NCBI GenBank assembly: GCA_946007445.1
Contig: CAMGAL010000108.1
Location: 1-7,194, forward strand
Reading direction: 5' to 3'
From: an uncultured Mediterranea sp.
Lineage (GTDB): Bacteria; Bacteroidota; Bacteroidia; Bacteroidales; Bacteroidaceae
DNA: 7,194 nt
Shown here: positions 1,443 to 7,194 of the stretch, in pieces
How the letters are laid out: every line of letters starts with the position of its first letter
How positions within the stretch are numbered: the first letter of the stretch is position 1
Program-made: the position numbers and the translations under genes
Notes under the pieces: generated by a model
What the model was told of the DNA's origin: nothing
Database searches by the model: none
Seen by the model: only the letters and a program-made list of their open reading frames with translations

Positions 1443-2558
1443 TTAGGGCTGTAGCAGACGCTCCGTGGCCTGTACGAAGCGCAGGGCACGGCTACGGGCT
1501 TCGGCGGGGAGGGCAGGGGGCAGGGAGTCGGTGCGTAGCAGCTGGAAGGAGCGTTGGCCAGTGAGCCGGGGGCGGGCTACCCAGACCAAGTGGGTGCGGT
1601 AGCTGCGCAGGTGGCAGTTGCCGTCTGGGTAGTGCCAAGCCTCATCGGTCGTGGGGCGGCTGATGAGGCAGGGAGTCCGTGGAAGGGCAGGTGGGGGAAG
1701 GGGCTGCTTTTCCAGCTCCAGGGTGACCACCAGTCCGCCGTCGGTGTGGGGTGCACTCATGTTGGAGAGGAAGTTGCCGAGGGAGTAGACCACGACATGG
1801 CGTTCCAGTCCGTCGCTGCACACCTCTACGGGTTGCACCACATGGGGATGCGAACCGATGATGTGGGTCACACCCTGGGCAAGCAGCCAGTCTGCCAGTT
1901 GGCGTTGCGCCGTGTTGGGCGTACGCTGATACTCCTCGCCCCAGTGGATGCAGACGATGAGGGCGTCGGGACGGAGCGAGCGGGCGTGGCGGATGTCGTC
2001 GGCCATGACGGTGCGGGCGATGTAGTCCACTACGTTGGGCGGGGTGACGCGGATGCCGTTGGTGCCGGAGGTGTAGTTGAGCAGGGCGATGCGGAAGCCG
2101 TTCTTCTCTATCAGCAGGGGCAGCCGCTCTTGCCGTTCCTCAGGGGTGCGGTAGGTGCCGAGGTGGGGGATGTGGAGTGAGTCGAGCAGTCGGATGGTGC
2201 GCTCCAACCCCTTGCGTCCGCGGTCCAGACAGTGGTTGTTGGCCGTGAGCAGCACGTCGAAGCCTGCCTCATGGATGGCGGTGAGGTACTCGTCGGGCGC
2301 ACTGAAGGCGGGGTAGCCCTTGTAGGGCAGGCCGCCGAGGGTGACCTCTAGGTTGCCAATCGCCACATCGGCTCCTTCGATGAGGGAGCGCACGGGGGCG
2401 AAGCAGGCACCGTAGTCGTAGCTTCCGTCCGGCTGACGCGCAGCATCTATCTGCGCCTGATGTTGCATCAGGTCGCCTGCAAAGAGCAGCGTCAGCCGCT
2501 TCTGGGGGAAGAGGGAGAGGCTGCTGCTGAGGAGGAGTGTCAGGAGGAGGGGGCGCAT
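1443..2558 (-). CDS. CapA-family exported metallophosphatase-like protein
   Basis: A 371-residue protein with a hydrophobic N-terminal signal peptide (about residues 1-19, cut likely near F-P-Q). After it comes the CapA / poly-gamma-glutamate-synthesis fold: LLFAGDLM (24-31, metal-binding Asp29), GNLE (68-71), LTANNHCLDRG (104-114), HWGEEY (205-210), GSHPHV (235-240) and VYSLGNF (257-263). These are the metal-site motifs of the calcineurin-like CapA domain, and the length fits. The family is named for Bacillus capsule export, but in Bacteroidota single-domain homologues usually stand alone. The physiological substrate is unknown, and no capB or capC neighbour is visible here. The region after residue 280 is Pro-rich and carries no recognised motif. 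The start at 2558 is chosen because it gives the signal peptide; no Shine-Dalgarno precedes it, as usual in this phylum. It lies 146 bases downstream of folD, across an inverted-repeat element, so read-through from the ffh-folD transcript is possible. Confidence 0.9.
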   Translation of the reverse strand: MRPLLLTLLLSSSLSLFPQKRLTLLFAGDLMQHQAQIDAARQPDGSYDYGACFAPVRSLIEGADVAIGNLEVTLGGLPYKGYPAFSAPDEYLTAIHEAGFDVLLTANNHCLDRGRKGLERTIRLLDSLHIPHLGTYRTPEERQERLPLLIEKNGFRIALLNYTSGTNGIRVTPPNVVDYIARTVMADDIRHARSLRPDALIVCIHWGEEYQRTPNTAQRQLADWLLAQGVTHIIGSHPHVVQPVEVCSDGLERHVVVYSLGNFLSNMSAPHTDGGLVVTLELEKQPLPPPALPRTPCLISRPTTDEAWHYPDGNCHLRSYRTHLVWVARPRLTGQRSFQLLRTDSLPPALPAEARSRALRFVQATERLLQP

Positions 2559-2573
2559 GGATTATTTTTGGGG

Positions 2574-2695
2574 GGAGATAAATGGAGATAAAGGCCGATA
2601 GTTATTTGTTATTGGGGAGATAAAGGCTAAAGGTTGCACCAGCTATACAAATAGAGAGTATTGGCCTTTATCTCCATTTATCTTCCTTTATCTCC
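2574..2695. repeat. Inverted-repeat element built of GGAGATAAA units
   Basis: Bases 2576-2596 and 2663-2683 form a perfect 21-bp inverted repeat separated by 66 bases. The unit GGAGATAAA occurs exactly at 2574-2582, 2584-2592 and 2616-2624 on the plus strand and at 2667-2675 and 2687-2695 on the minus strand, with a one-base-longer variant at 2677-2686 (minus). In a minus-strand transcript the first arm (2663-2675) could pair either with the outer arm or with the inner copy at 2616-2627 (12 of 13 bases), so two hairpins compete. The outer arm ends about 17 bases before the capA-like ATG. There is no T tract after the stem in either direction, so it is not a classical terminator. It fills most of the folD to capA-like gap; I see no convincing promoter there. 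Confidence 0.85.
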
Positions 2696-2704
2696 TCAAA
2701 AAAC

Positions 2705-3586
2705 TCATTGATAAATCTCCTTCTTTCCTGCCAGCAAGGTATTCTTCATCAGCGACACGATGGTCATGGGACCCACGCCACCGGGTACGGGAGTGATGAA
2801 CGAGCACTTGGGGGCTACCTCGTCGAACTTTACGTCGCCCGTCAGCTTGAAGCCCGACTTGCGGGTGGTATCGGGCACGCGCGTAGTACCTACGTCGATT
2901 ACCACGGCACCCTCCTTCACCATCTCTGCCTTCACGAAGTTGGGCTGACCCAAAGCGGCAATGAGGATATCCGCTTCCTGGCACTCCTTGACCAAGTCCT
3001 TGCTGCGGCTGTGGCACACGGTGACGGTGGCATCGCCGGGATAGGCTTTCTGCATCATCAGTGTGGCCATAGGCTTGCCCACGATATTGCTACGTCCCAG
3101 CACCACGCACTTCTTGCCTTGTGTCTCGATGTGGTAGCGCTTCAGCAGTTCGAGGATGCCGTTGGGGGTGGCACTCACGTAGCAGGGAAGTCCGATGGAC
3201 ATGCGGCCCACGTTGATGGGGTGGAAGCCGTCCACGTCCTTGCGGTAGTCGATGGTCTCGATGACCTTCTGCTCGGAGATGTGCTTGGGCAGGGGGAGCT
3301 GTACGATGAAGCCATCCACATCGGCATCTTCATTCAGTTCGCGCACCTTGGCCAGCAGTTCCTCCTCGGTGACATCGGCCTCGTAGCGGATGAGGCTCGA
3401 CTTGAATCCACACACTTCGCACGCCTTCACCTTGGCGGCTACATAGGTTTCGCTACCTCCATCGTGTCCCACCAGGATGGCGGCCAGATGGGGGCGCTTG
3501 CCTCCGTTCTTCACGATTTCGGCCACTTCTGCTGCAATCTCCTGCTTCACCTGCTCGGAGATGGCTTTTCCGTCAATCAGTTGCAT
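2705..3586 (-). CDS. folD: FolD: methylene-THF dehydrogenase / methenyl-THF cyclohydrolase
   Basis: This cytosolic bifunctional enzyme interconverts 5,10-methylene-THF, 5,10-methenyl-THF and 10-formyl-THF using NAD(P), supplying one-carbon units for purine synthesis and formyl-methionyl-tRNA. The 293-residue length is normal for the family. Visible motifs: YVAAK (48-52, with the catalytic Lys52 and active-site Tyr48 of the family), [11 protein letters not shown] (90-100, Gln96), [10 protein letters not shown] (116-125, Asp119), the Rossmann segment [12 protein letters not shown] (161-172), and [10 protein letters not shown] (266-275). All key residues are present, so it should be active. The ATG at 3586 matches the usual FolD N-terminus (MQLIDGK). 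It follows ffh by 26 bases on the same strand, implying co-transcription from the promoter at 4983-5012. Confidence 0.97.
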
Positions 3587-3612
3587 ATCTGTTCTATAGT
3601 TTCGATTATACC

Positions 3613-4938
3613 TTACTTTTTCATTTTGGGCATCATCATCTTGCCCATCTTGCTGCCCGTCACCATCTTCATCATCTTGCGCGTCTGGTCGAACTGCTTC
3701 AGCAGGCGGTTCACCTCCTGGATGTTGGTGCCGCTACCCTTGGCGATGCGCTGACGGCGGCTGCCGTTCAGGATTTCGGGGTTGGTGCGCTCCTTGGGGG
3801 TCATGGAGTTGATGATGGCCTCGATGCTCTTGAAGGCGTTGTCGTCGATGTCGATGTCCTTGATGGCCTTGCCTACGCCGGGAATCATGCTGGCCAGCTC
3901 CTTCAGGTTACCCATCTTCTTGATTTGCTGGATCTGCGACATGAAGTCGTTGAAGTCGAACTGGTTCTTCTGAATCTTCTTCTGCAGGCGCTTGGCTTCC
4001 TCCTCGTCGTACTGCTCCTGGGCGCGTTCCACGAGTGAAACGATGTCGCCCATGCCAAGGATGCGGTCGGCCATACGCGAGGGGTGGAACTGGTCGATGG
4101 CCTCCAGCTTCTCGCCCGTACCGACGAACTTGATGGGCTTGTTCACCACCGTGCGGATGGAGAGGGCGGCACCACCACGGGTGTCACCGTCGAGCTTGGT
4201 CAGTACTACGCCGTTGAAGTCCAGCCGTTCGTTGAACTCACGAGCCGTATTGACGGCATCCTGACCGGTCATGGCATCGACCACGAAGAGGATTTCGTCC
4301 GGCTGGATGGCCTTCTTGATGGCGGCAATCTCGTTCATCATCTCTTCATCGACAGCCAGACGACCGGCGGTATCGACGATGACCAGGTCATAGCCCTTGG
4401 CTTTGGCCTCCTGGATGGCGTGCTGGGCAATGGCTACGGGGTCTTTGCTGTCCAGCTCGCAATACATGGGTACGTTGATCTGTTCGGCCAGCACGCGCAG
4501 CTGCTCGATGGCAGCGGGGCGATAGACGTCGCAGGCCACCAGCAGCGGGCGGCGGTTCTTCTTGCTCTTCAGCATACGGGCCAGCTTGCCGGAGAAGGTG
4601 GTCTTACCCGAGCCTTGCAGACCGGACATCAGGATGACCGAGGGCTTGCCGATGAGGTTGAGTTCGGCGGTCTCGCCACCCATCAGTTTGGTCAGTTCGT
4701 CGTGTACAATCTTCACCATTAGCTGGCTGGGCTTCACGGCGGTCAGCACGTTCTGTCCCATGGCTTTCTCCTTGACGGTATCGGTGAAGTTCTTGGCTAC
4801 CTTGTAGTTGACGTCGGCATCGAGCAACGCCTTGCGCACGTCTTTCAGGGTTTCGGCTACGTTGATTTCGGTAATCTTGCCTTCGCCCTTGAGGATTTTG
4901 AATGATCTCTCTAATCTCTCGCTTAAATTGTCGAACAT
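3613..4938 (-). CDS. ffh: Ffh: signal recognition particle GTPase (SRP54)
   Basis: This is the protein subunit of the bacterial signal recognition particle. With 4.5S RNA it binds hydrophobic signal sequences on nascent chains and delivers ribosomes to FtsY at the membrane through paired GTP hydrolysis. In the 441 residues, the N domain (about 1-95) is followed by the G domain with G1 GLQGSGKTT (106-114), [11 protein letters not shown] (137-147), G3 DTAGR (189-193), G4 TKLD (247-250) and the GDTRGG segment (251-256). The M domain (about 315-441) has the RNA-binding helix-turn-helix [12 protein letters not shown] (393-404) and a methionine-rich C-terminus ([17 protein letters not shown]). All catalytic and RNA-contact motifs are intact. 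The ATG at 4938 gives the standard [10 protein letters not shown] start. A Bacteroidota promoter lies about 45 bases upstream, and folD follows closely, so ffh is the first gene of the transcript. Confidence 0.98.
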
Positions 4939-4982
4939 AGTTTATGATGGAATTTTTGTTGTAATGCTACTTTTTGAAGCTG

Positions 4983-5012
4983 CAAAAGTACAAAAAAAAC
5001 GTGATAGTCAAG
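4983..5012 (-). promoter_or_regulatory. Bacteroidota-type promoter of ffh-folD
   Basis: On the minus strand the -7 box TACTTTTG (4990-4983) matches TAnnTTTG exactly. A -33-like CTTG (5012-5009, three of four TTTG bases) precedes it at 18 bases, slightly shorter than the usual 19-21. Transcription would start near 4976, leaving a leader of about 38 bases before the ffh ATG. A run of eight T bases fills part of the spacer. The promoter sits in the 126-base gap after the sensor gene, so ffh need not depend on the sensor transcript. Confidence 0.7.
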
Positions 5013-5064
5013 CAATTCTTGCCCAAGAAGACGCAGAAAGCGTGTGTAAGGAGGCAAGCCGGAC

Positions 5065-7041
5065 TCAGGCGATGGGGTAGGTGAACTCCAGAAGGGCGCC
5101 TTGCGGAGTCTCTCCCCTCAGGATATACTCGCCTCCGAAGTGCTTGATGGTAAGGCGGTTGATGTCGTTTCGAATGGCCTTCTCGTAGCACTCCTTGCAG
5201 GGAGAGGCCAGGTGGGAACCCCAGATGCGGAAATGGAGCATGGTGCCTTCCAGCTCTACGTGGAGCTGCACTTGGCGAGGAATGTCGCCGTGCGGGCAGA
5301 GGGGATTGACCGCACTGCTCAGGCAGCTCTCTATCAGCTGCATCATCCGCTTGCCGTCGGTCTCTACCTGCTGGCTGGGCAGGTTGCATATAAAGGTAAT
5401 CTGGGTGGAGGGACGGTGCATCTGAACGGACGTGATGGCATCCCGACAGGTCTGTATCAGGTCGCACGGACCCAGCTGCCACTTGGTCATGTCAGCTTCC
5501 AGACGCGAGAGGTCGAGCACACTGTTGACCAACTGGATGAGCAGACCGGTATTCTCGGTGATGGTCTGTGCCGCACGTTGGCGCTCGTCGGCGCTGAGGG
5601 TAGAGTCGCTGGCCAGCTGTTGCGAGAGCTTCACCACCGTGTCGATGGGCTTGCTGATCTTTTGCCGGAGGTTGTTGAGGAAGAGTCCCTTCACCTCGTT
5701 GGCCTTCTCGCTCTGTCGGGTGGCCTCTTGCGTCTCCTGCTGCGCTTGGCTCAGGGCCTTGTGCAGGTGGCGGATGTGGCGGATGTAGAGGGCACAGACG
5801 GCCAAGAGGACGATGACCAAAATCAGAATGGCCCATTGGGTCTTCTCCCGTAAGTTGGCTTGGCGTATGAGAATCTGCTCCAAGTGGTGCTCGCGCTTAA
5901 TCTCCTCCACTTGCTCGTCGGAGATGACACTGTTGATGGAGTCTTGCCACTGCTGCGACTGCTTGAAGCAGTGTACGGCCTCCTTGTAGCGGCCCATCTG
6001 TTGCAGCAGCTCACCGCGGCGGTAGAGGCGGCCGGCCCACGTGGAGTTGCGCTCCCCGTGCCGGGCCTGATGGCTCCAGATGGTGGCGCTGCAGGCCAGT
6101 GCCTGCTCATAGGCACCGATGGCCTTGTAGTACTCGACGCAGACGCTCAGGAAGAGGTCCGCCGAAAGCAGGTAGGTCTGCTCGTTGAAGCTCCGGCGGA
6201 TTTGCTCCATGTACCGGCGGGCTGTGTCGTAGTCGCCTTGATGGACGTAGTAGAGCATGAGGTAGGACTCCGTGTAGATGAGCTGGGTGGAGTGGACAGC
6301 CTCACCGCCCAGCGAGGTGCGGATGTTGTCGTGTAGCATGGCCAGCAGCTCTTCGCCGTACTGCTTCAGCTCCTCCCACCGCTGGTGGTCGGCGCAGTGC
6401 TTCACTAGCGAGGCCAGGATATCGAGCTTCTGGCCGTCGGAGTCCAGTTGGGGAAAGAGGCGGTAGGCCTGTTGCAGAGCTTCATACTCCTGTTCCGGCT
6501 GATGGATGTCGCTGTAGGTAGCGGCCAGGCAGTAATAGGCAGACGCCGTCCCGTTGACCATCCCCTTTTCGGAGGCCTCTTGAGCCATTTCTCGGGCTTG
6601 CTGGATGGCATATTCGTATCGGTGTTGTTCGCTGTAGAGGCTGATGAGCAGTTCCTTGCCTTGGAAGTAGTGTTTCCATTGGCTGGTCTTCCGAGCAATC
6701 TGCAGGATGCGCTTCTGCCATACCTCGAGGCTGTCAATCTGCTCTTCGTTGTTGTAGCAGTGGAGCATCAGCATGTAGAGTCCGGTGCTCTCGCTACGCA
6801 GGTCGCCTTGCAAGCGGGCCTCGTCGATGAGCCAGCGCACGATTTGCGCATCCTTGGGGTCTTGCTGGAAGGCATAGGTCAGGTTGACCAGCGTTTTGAG
6901 ACGCGCGGAATCGTGCGGCATCTGGGGCAGCAACGCCAGGAGGCTGTCGCGGGCGTGGCCCTCGGCACGGAGGGGCAGGGTGTGCAGCCAGCCGAGCAGG
7001 CAGGCGCCTAGCAGCAGGAGCCGGTAGAGGTGGCGCTTCAT
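5065..7041 (-). CDS. TPR-type membrane sensor resembling a histidine kinase, catalytically degenerate (pseudokinase)
   Basis: This 658-residue protein has the layout of the Bacteroidota periplasmic-TPR sensor kinases. Residues 1-26 are a signal peptide or anchor. Residues about 30-370 are helical, with TPR-like repeats in the periplasm (for example YKEAVHCFKQSQQW at 352-365). A coiled linker follows, then one membrane segment at 403-420, a cytoplasmic coiled coil, HisKA-like helices (445-515) and an ATPase-like domain (about 525-658). The kinase core is degenerate. At the FLxNMSHEIRTPL position it reads FLNNLRQKISKPI, with Gln460 for the phospho-acceptor His. In the N box both Asn positions are Ser (572, 576). 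The DxGxG box reads W-G-S-H-L-A (607-612), and no GLGL box precedes GGEYILRGETPQGALLEFTYPIA (636-658). I infer a non-catalytic sensor or decoy. The ATG at 7041 is chosen for its signal peptide. It overlaps the upstream stop as ATGA, indicating translational coupling. The frame itself is intact, so degeneration is in sequence, not in reading frame. Confidence 0.9.
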   Translation of the reverse strand: MKRHLYRLLLLGACLLGWLHTLPLRAEGHARDSLLALLPQMPHDSARLKTLVNLTYAFQQDPKDAQIVRWLIDEARLQGDLRSESTGLYMLMLHCYNNEEQIDSLEVWQKRILQIARKTSQWKHYFQGKELLISLYSEQHRYEYAIQQAREMAQEASEKGMVNGTASAYYCLAATYSDIHQPEQEYEALQQAYRLFPQLDSDGQKLDILASLVKHCADHQRWEELKQYGEELLAMLHDNIRTSLGGEAVHSTQLIYTESYLMLYYVHQGDYDTARRYMEQIRRSFNEQTYLLSADLFLSVCVEYYKAIGAYEQALACSATIWSHQARHGERNSTWAGRLYRRGELLQQMGRYKEAVHCFKQSQQWQDSINSVISDEQVEEIKREHHLEQILIRQANLREKTQWAILILVIVLLAVCALYIRHIRHLHKALSQAQQETQEATRQSEKANEVKGLFLNNLRQKISKPIDTVVKLSQQLASDSTLSADERQRAAQTITENTGLLIQLVNSVLDLSRLEADMTKWQLGPCDLIQTCRDAITSVQMHRPSTQITFICNLPSQQVETDGKRMMQLIESCLSSAVNPLCPHGDIPRQVQLHVELEGTMLHFRIWGSHLASPCKECYEKAIRNDINRLTIKHFGGEYILRGETPQGALLEFTYPIA

Positions 7042-7194
7042 ACGGCTACCTCCTTTCTCCCTCCTTCGGGATGGAGGGGATGGGTGAAGTGGAAGCAGGC
7101 ACCTTGGTCGTAGTCCGGGTCTATCCTTGTGTGGAGTCCGTTGGGTTGGTTGTTGAGGTGGCTGTTGGAGAGAGGAAGTCAGCTGGAGATTGCG
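7038..7194 (-). CDS. C-terminal tail of an upstream sensor histidine kinase (partial, possibly frameshifted)
   Basis: The frame that ends with the TGA overlapping the pseudokinase ATG (7038-7040) encodes LPLSNSHLNNQPNG, then LHTRIDPDYDQGACFHFTHPL and a short tail (HPEGGRKEVAV). This has the form of the last strands of a histidine-kinase ATP-binding domain: a GLxLS-type box, an acidic D-P-x-Y turn and a G-A-x-F-x-F-T-x-P end. The ATGA overlap supports it as a real translated frame. However, an in-frame TGA lies at 7179-7181, only 46 codons from the end. One extra G near 7179 would join the neighbouring frame to give QSPAGLPLS, so a single-base deletion is plausible. Alternatives are a nonsense mutation, or that the frame assignment here is wrong. 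Only 157 bases are visible, so the gene's state cannot be settled. It would be the partner kinase of the downstream pseudokinase. Confidence 0.5.

Follow-up and report, generated by a model that had tools for sequence, protein, structure and literature searches.

A predicted receptor pseudokinase encoded in tandem with a histidine kinase in Mediterranea, and its family in gut Bacteroides and relatives

We analysed a stretch of 7,194 nucleotides (hereafter the window) from an uncultured Mediterranea sp., contig CAMGAL010000108.1 of assembly GCA_946007445.1, which encodes a membrane protein with the layout of a sensor histidine kinase and none of the catalytic motifs. From sequence comparison, this protein is probably a receptor pseudokinase, one member of a complex whose other member is the histidine kinase encoded directly before it, the two genes overlapping by 4 bases. 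Its dead relatives form a large family in gut Bacteroides and related bacteria. Since the dead genes almost always lie behind, or are sometimes fused to, a kinase of working type, they are likely the receptor half of a two-protein switch and not decaying genes. Histidine kinases are usually described as homodimers with sensing and catalysis on one chain, and this dead-live family would depart from that description. The partner, a deletion in the ATP lid, the family and the fusions are additions to the first-pass annotation of this DNA, which had described a sensor that kept the layout of a kinase and had lost its catalytic residues.

Architecture and lost motifs of the window protein

The gene and its parts are listed in Table 1. 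The first-pass annotation had reported an unbroken reading frame, Gln at the phospho-acceptor site, Ser at both N-box positions, an altered G box and no GLGL box, and these observations held on re-examination. The family alignment puts Q460 on the phospho-acceptor column, S572 and S576 on both Asn of the live partners' NLLINA, and G608-S609-H610 of the WGSHLA segment (607-612) on the first three residues of DTGCGI; a GLGL box is absent. That annotation had overlooked a deletion of 14 columns, which takes away the last residues of G1 together with some of the ATP lid. Where active kinases have His followed by an acidic residue, the window protein has Q460-K461, and it carries none of the N box, G1, lid and G2 signatures of an active HATPase_c domain. 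Searches with Pfam models gave a HisKA match (E 2.6e-4) under the family cut-off, and HATPase_c was not among the best 25 of 28 Pfam families (E up to 1.8). Among the 25 NCBIfam models listed for the protein, none reached its cut-off.

Table 1. Features of the pseudokinase gene and of its upstream partner, in window positions
Feature	Position	Strand	Basis
Pseudo-histidine-kinase gene, ATG start, 658 codons	5065..7041	(-)	Uninterrupted ORF and four close homologues
Residues 1-26, N terminus resembling a signal peptide	6964..7041	(-)	Read from sequence
Residues 27-399, helical repeat domain of TPR type, predicted periplasmic	5845..6963	(-)	
Single membrane segment, residues ~400-421	5779..5844	(-)	Hydrophobic stretch within model helix 352-478
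DHp (HisKA-like) helical hairpin, residues ~445-516	5494..5709	(-)	HisKA E 2.6e-4, residues 451-516
Gln460 codon, phospho-acceptor site	5662..5664	(-)	Column is His in live kinases
Residues 517-658, degenerate catalytic/ATP-binding domain lacking N box, G1 and G2, lid shortened	5068..5493	(-)	
N-box equivalent, Ser572 and Ser576	5314..5328	(-)	Aligned to NLLINA of live kinases
G1-box equivalent G608-S609-H610, then a 14-residue deletion	5212..5220	(-)	Aligned to DTG of DTGCGI
Upstream partner kinase gene, 3' end, cut by contig end	7038..7194	(-)	Frame IDPDYDQGACFHFTHPLHPEGGRKEVAV-stop, like the P0148 C terminus

The AlphaFold2 model of the window protein (mean pLDDT 85.5; pTM 0.57) has helical repeats at its N terminus and one long helix across the membrane segment; a DHp hairpin and, at the C terminus, an alpha/beta domain complete it. 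The hairpin and the GHKL-like alpha/beta domain are those of the HisKA/HATPase structural superfamily. Foldseek matched about 235 columns of the model to the kinase regions of HK853, WalK/YycG, RetS and DivL (E 1e-9 to 3e-7), and the RetS-GacS complex was also among its matches. With VIA-align, TPR and other repeat proteins fill the 50 entries listed for the model, and the absence of kinase regions from these entries is an effect of that list.

A family of dead kinases under purifying selection

We identified four close homologues of the window protein (651-663 aa; identity: 98, 71, 61 and 55%), all with full-length frames, in which the acceptor column reads Q, Q, Q and R, respectively. Ser572 is present in all four, and Gln is not invariant, the 55% homologue P0004 having Arg. 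Because the motif changes recur in homologues, they amount to far more than chance. The degenerate catalytic domain is 72 and 70% identical to that of the window protein in P0003 and P0004, against 55 and 49% for the TPR domain; P0002, the 71% homologue, displays the opposite pattern (degenerate catalytic domain: 51%; TPR: 75%). Across the protein, conservation is lowest over residues 1-26 in three of these four homologues; it peaks in the DHp hairpin for P0002 and P0003, which is not the case for P0004.

A scan of the genus returned a match at E 1e-60 or better in 42 of 158 genomes. The window's own genome holds two more full-length paralogues, with His then Ala at the acceptor site and without N and G boxes, and the Bacteroidales records that contain dead genes are mostly Bacteroides, Mediterranea and Prevotella. 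We labelled as dead those proteins in which the G1 motif is absent. Quantification of the acceptor residue in 119 non-identical dead relatives (nine dead ORFs shorter than 500 aa are omitted, and L120_3520, a live-type gene with a shifted frame, was removed) revealed H in 61, Y in 37, Q in 10, K in 3, T, F and N in 2 each, and D and R in 1 each. Ala follows the His in 55 of the 61 members that keep it. In the window's clade of six, the acceptor is Q or R throughout. On a FastTree tree, the 119 dead cores are split from 85 live and 17 other kinases by one branch (support 100), which calls for care as the tree contains long branches and its rows were labelled dead through G1 absence. On the FastTree tree of dead proteins, exchange between His and another acceptor residue requires at least four changes. 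The first-pass annotation had named a sister protein with intact His, N and G boxes as the case that would mark the gene as decaying; such a protein was sought and not found, the 61 relatives that keep His all lacking the live motif set.

Purifying selection, proposed earlier as a further check, was observed on the dead genes of the family, that is, on relatives and not on the window gene itself, whose nearest relative among the DNA sequences compared (L067) is about 40% identical to it. The median dN/dS of dead genes was 0.087 (0.035-0.235; 19 comparisons with dS <1.5, 25 loci), when compared to 0.059 for their live partners (19 comparisons); all of these come from the set of 60 stretches described below, where 41 of the 60 comparisons were dropped with dS ≥1.5 or no computable value. 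Within the dead gene, the values were 0.084 for the TPR part, 0.032 for the DHp part (18 comparisons) and 0.103 for the degenerate catalytic domain. The DHp part, presumably the contact surface, is therefore the most constrained. Interrupted dead copies do occur: L071 (genome G056) has an internal TAG, and L144 and L156 are split.

Tandem pairing with, and fusion to, a live-type kinase

The surroundings of dead genes were studied in two sets of loci, which are not independent because they share genomes. One comprises 60 stretches, most of them around full-length hits, picked by similarity to the window from a larger number of hits; the other was drawn from 74 loci and is confined to the 57 that belong to Bacteroidales. 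Dead genes were counted if they encoded 480 aa or more and were preceded by 1 kb or more of sequence. Homology to a live-type HisKA kinase immediately preceded these genes, on the same strand, in 59 of 59 cases in the first set and in 49 of 51 in the Bacteroidales set. Of 57 pairs in which both starts were called, 42 had a gap of exactly -4 bases, a 4-base overlap. Live genes were identified through the G1 motif; those aligned over the acceptor site and the N box keep both, the acceptor motif being HE-(I/V)-(R/K)-TPL, and most have GLGL. Some partners have shifted frames (L111/L176, L120/L162 and L177), and that of L115 has stops. In one exception, L155 of Bacteroides finegoldii (3444-5919), live-kinase homology was not found within 2.6 kb upstream of the dead gene. 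The core distances of live and dead proteins are correlated (r 0.88; 999 shuffles reach at most 0.30), a mirror-tree correlation that neighbouring genes would also show simply by being inherited together.

Individual loci differ in their arrangement. Upstream of the dead gene in L155 lies a 197-residue ORF without a Pfam match at E 1e-5. In L175 (3649-6705), the other exception, the order is reversed, and the dead gene is followed 12 bases on by a live kinase of 363 aa. In L153 of Bacteroides xylanisolvens (2651-8543), live, dead and live kinase-like genes overlap in a row; L100 seems to be alike, its third gene being cut by the end of the stretch.

In the window, a frame ending at 7038 reads IDPDYDQGACFHFTHPLHPEGGRKEVAV followed by a stop, and overlaps the pseudokinase start at 7038-7041. 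The upstream, overlapping partner is visible as far as the contig end, and its motifs lie beyond. P0148, a kinase of 614 aa whose motifs are intact (HisKA E 7e-16; HATPase_c E 2e-26; C terminus IDPDYNDGACFHFTHPIHPDDGRKEVAV), matches the 3' end of the window partner, which we judged by it to be of the long type described below; P0148 may be a neighbour of P0002, the longest contig measuring 4706 for both. At 7125-7194, some 23 partner codons depart from the P0148 sequence, with an in-frame stop among them, and the next 28 residues match; the divergent codons at the contig end are either an assembly-edge error or real damage. Another pair in the window's genome, on contig C66, has a short-type live partner of 357 aa without a TPR match. 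In genome G000, contig C222 ends inside a live kinase and C15 opens with the 3' end of a live kinase followed by a dead paralogue, so the two may be neighbouring contigs.

Six single chains join a live and a dead half (P0023 to P0028; 966-1139 aa; clusters of up to 240 members), and two fusion ORFs of 1092 and 1145 aa were found in one Mediterranea genome (L080; also L138). The live motifs are kept once in all six, and Pfam finds two HisKA and one HATPase_c domain in each of the two that were scanned, P0025 and P0028. In P0026-P0028, one of which is assigned to Prevotella by its source record, the dead acceptor site is likewise occupied by Gln; these three lie on a different branch from the clade of the window protein. 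The fused dead halves fall on three separate branches of the dead-protein tree, with unfused relatives on each. The AlphaFold2 model of P0025 (pTM 0.49) says nothing on contacts between the halves; Foldseek matched it to canonical kinases, which adds nothing on pairing since single chains are compared. A fusion query against 301 genomes of the family gave no match at E 1e-150, a threshold that was too strict, and matches in 22 of 301 at 1e-70. The longest of the latter, L221 and L225 from another genus of the family, were rejected as fusions: they are adjacent live-type and dead-type genes with one stop between them.

The argument of the first-pass annotation for retained function is strengthened by these results, namely conservation of the loss across the clade, purifying selection family-wide, pairing with a live-type kinase and live-dead fusions. 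Its suggestion that the dead sensor may modulate a live partner likewise gains from the near-universal pairing and from the natural fusions.

Division of labour, alternatives and known systems

In the arrangement that we favour, the TPR domain would bind a periplasmic signal, and dead and live DHp helices would pair with each other. Signal binding would then switch the live catalytic domain between phosphorylation of its own His and removal of phosphate from the regulator, and phosphate would pass on to a response regulator encoded elsewhere. We infer both the physical contact of live and dead proteins and this output from sequence; the natural fusions bear indirectly on the contact, and the live and dead proteins could each homodimerise instead. 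In the window's clade, the dead subunit would act through a change of shape and not through relay. Phosphate relay through a Gln-bearing dead subunit looks impossible and, since Gln or Arg takes no phosphate, autophosphorylation of the live subunit would need to take place within its own chain. The Gln-bearing fusions, in which an intact live half stands beside an acceptor-less half, favour self-phosphorylation of the live chain or live-live contacts between fusions. In HisKA proteins, the residue after the His serves as the base and the residue four after it serves phosphatase activity; HAIRVPL, the common dead motif, alters both positions with the His kept, so that relay through the dead subunit looks unlikely there.

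Among 55 pairs with an intact live gene, the live partner measured 346-382 aa in 14 and 521-696 aa in 41. The shorter partners are too short to contain a large sensor domain. As the live partner is long in 41 of the 55 pairs, the dead protein need not be the only sensor and, with both short and long partners present, its role may vary between pairs, from principal sensor in some to additional sensor in others.

Three single-sequence receiver queries found no receiver in the 57 Bacteroidales loci and detected 14 of 20 control regulators. A receiver profile, which detected 19 of the 20 control regulators of the window's genome, found receivers in 5 of the 57 loci, none of them a co-directional neighbour of the pair: L137 (where the stretch ends), L165 (in a hybrid kinase, two genes off), and L168, L170 and L173 (on the opposite strand). 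At E 1e-5, the window's genome has 20 receivers, none on contigs C108, C66 and C15. A response regulator as a neighbouring operon member was not found by the queries or the profile over the 57 loci. Because receivers are rare and never co-directional beside the pair, the regulator is probably unlinked in most loci. In L168, L170 and L173, which belong to a branch with the acceptor motif YEIRIPL, the opposite-strand receiver lies upstream (LytTR type in L168), and so does an opposite-strand ORF of 410 residues, FtsX/MacB-like in L168. The regulator upstream of the pair could be its partner in this branch.

Several characterised proteins resemble the family in part, and each offers another reading of the dead protein. 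RetS of Pseudomonas takes phosphate from GacS-P and thereby dephosphorylates it, according to the abstract of the report (PMC5992135), so that one sensor kinase alters another; tandem genes and fusions do not appear in that abstract. A brake in this manner, in which the dead protein pairs with the live kinase and blocks autophosphorylation until a signal frees it, is possible and rather unlikely. Both the RetS kinase region and the RetS-GacS DHp complex are among the Foldseek matches and a live-dead heterodimer that lacks the acceptor His would have no activity if autophosphorylation occurred in trans; however, the fusions tie the halves 1:1 with the live motifs kept, which is a poor fit to a permanent block, and the common 4-base overlap would favour equal production. 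DivL of Caulobacter is a PAS-domain pseudo-histidine-kinase that reads DivK~P and has Tyr at the acceptor site (PMC4211667). It likewise reuses the histidine-kinase fold without kinase activity, is among the structural matches of the window model, and shares its Tyr with 37 of the 119 family members. The corresponding reading, that a dead homodimer binds a response regulator, possibly phosphorylated, and informs the live kinase, is nevertheless doubtful: the receptor here is a TPR domain in place of PAS domains, the window protein has Gln and not Tyr, receivers occur in only 5 of the 57 Bacteroidales loci with none adjoining the pair co-directionally, and regulator binding alone would leave unexplained why a live kinase so constantly precedes the dead protein or is joined to it.

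FasB and FasC of group A Streptococcus are kinase-like proteins encoded in the same locus, for which a heterodimer model has been put forward in which the proposed pseudokinase FasC carries the sensing half (PMC12675982). The regulator FasA is encoded there as well. FasC depends on its His (H246), its own kinase domain being dispensable (PMC12675982). The two kinase-like genes in one locus and a pseudokinase with the sensing half are as in the present family, which differs in that a regulator was not found beside the pair, the ATP lid is partly deleted, and the window's clade has no His, this residue being kept only in other branches. It is quite improbable that the degenerate domain has some other activity, or that the His of HAIR-type members takes phosphate from the live partner as proposed for FasB and FasC. 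The His is indeed kept in 61 of the 119 members, but Ala follows it in 55 of these instead of the acid found in kinases, the window's clade carries Gln or Arg, and an alternative motif was not recognised in the degenerate domain. That the gene is a functionless, decaying kinase duplicate is hardly credible. All catalytic motifs are gone, the acceptor varies (H, Y, Q, K, T, F, N, D, R), interruptions occur in a few copies and the partner codons at the contig end look damaged; on the other side stand purifying selection that extends to the degenerate catalytic domain, a single clade, full-length frames in the four close homologues, and the retained pairing and fusions. A lone decaying kinase was rejected on the selection, pairing and clade evidence.

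Two further systems bear on the idea of a receptor pseudokinase working with a live kinase. In CheA3/CheA4 of Rhodobacter, kinase functions are split over two proteins that both contribute catalysis or phosphotransfer, and the architecture is that of chemotaxis CheA, unlike the window family. A ChrS mutant of Corynebacterium without a working catalytic domain heterodimerises with its live paralogue (PMC9491836); it carries a laboratory-evolved frameshift, whereas the present family is natural. The family differs from known pseudokinases in its size, its tandem or fused architecture, its lid deletion and its TPR receptor. In the partial literature covered, we found no prior description of pseudo-, tandem or periplasmic-TPR histidine kinases of Bacteroides or Bacteroidetes.

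On a broader scale, we consider the chances evenly balanced that an obligate heteromeric histidine kinase evolved in Bacteroidota. It would consist of a dead subunit with a periplasmic TPR sensor and a short lid, and of a live subunit that does all the chemistry and is sensor-stripped in some lineages. It would have radiated so that a genome holds several paralogous pairs, and on several branches the two parts would have merged into one chain. The family brings two questions within reach of experiment, namely whether heteromeric histidine kinases that are stable occur commonly and whether one catalytic subunit suffices for a DHp bundle to signal; the fusions are single-chain versions with fixed stoichiometry. 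Since proteins of Bacteroides named for HisKA can be non-catalytic receptors, counts of signalling genes may overstate the number of working kinases.

The remaining genes of the window were also recorded. The same-strand neighbours at 1443-4938 are ordinary (a capsule-synthesis-like PGA_cap protein, FolD and Ffh/SRP54). An open frame of 289 residues (2-871), cut by the contig start, has no Pfam match at E 1e-5. A short plus-strand ORF at 955-1266 contains LRGVVTEAETGEPVIGAAVVQKG, which we take to resemble the start of a TonB-dependent outer-membrane receptor; it breaks off beside a tRNA-His gene (1219-1293) and looks like a remnant.
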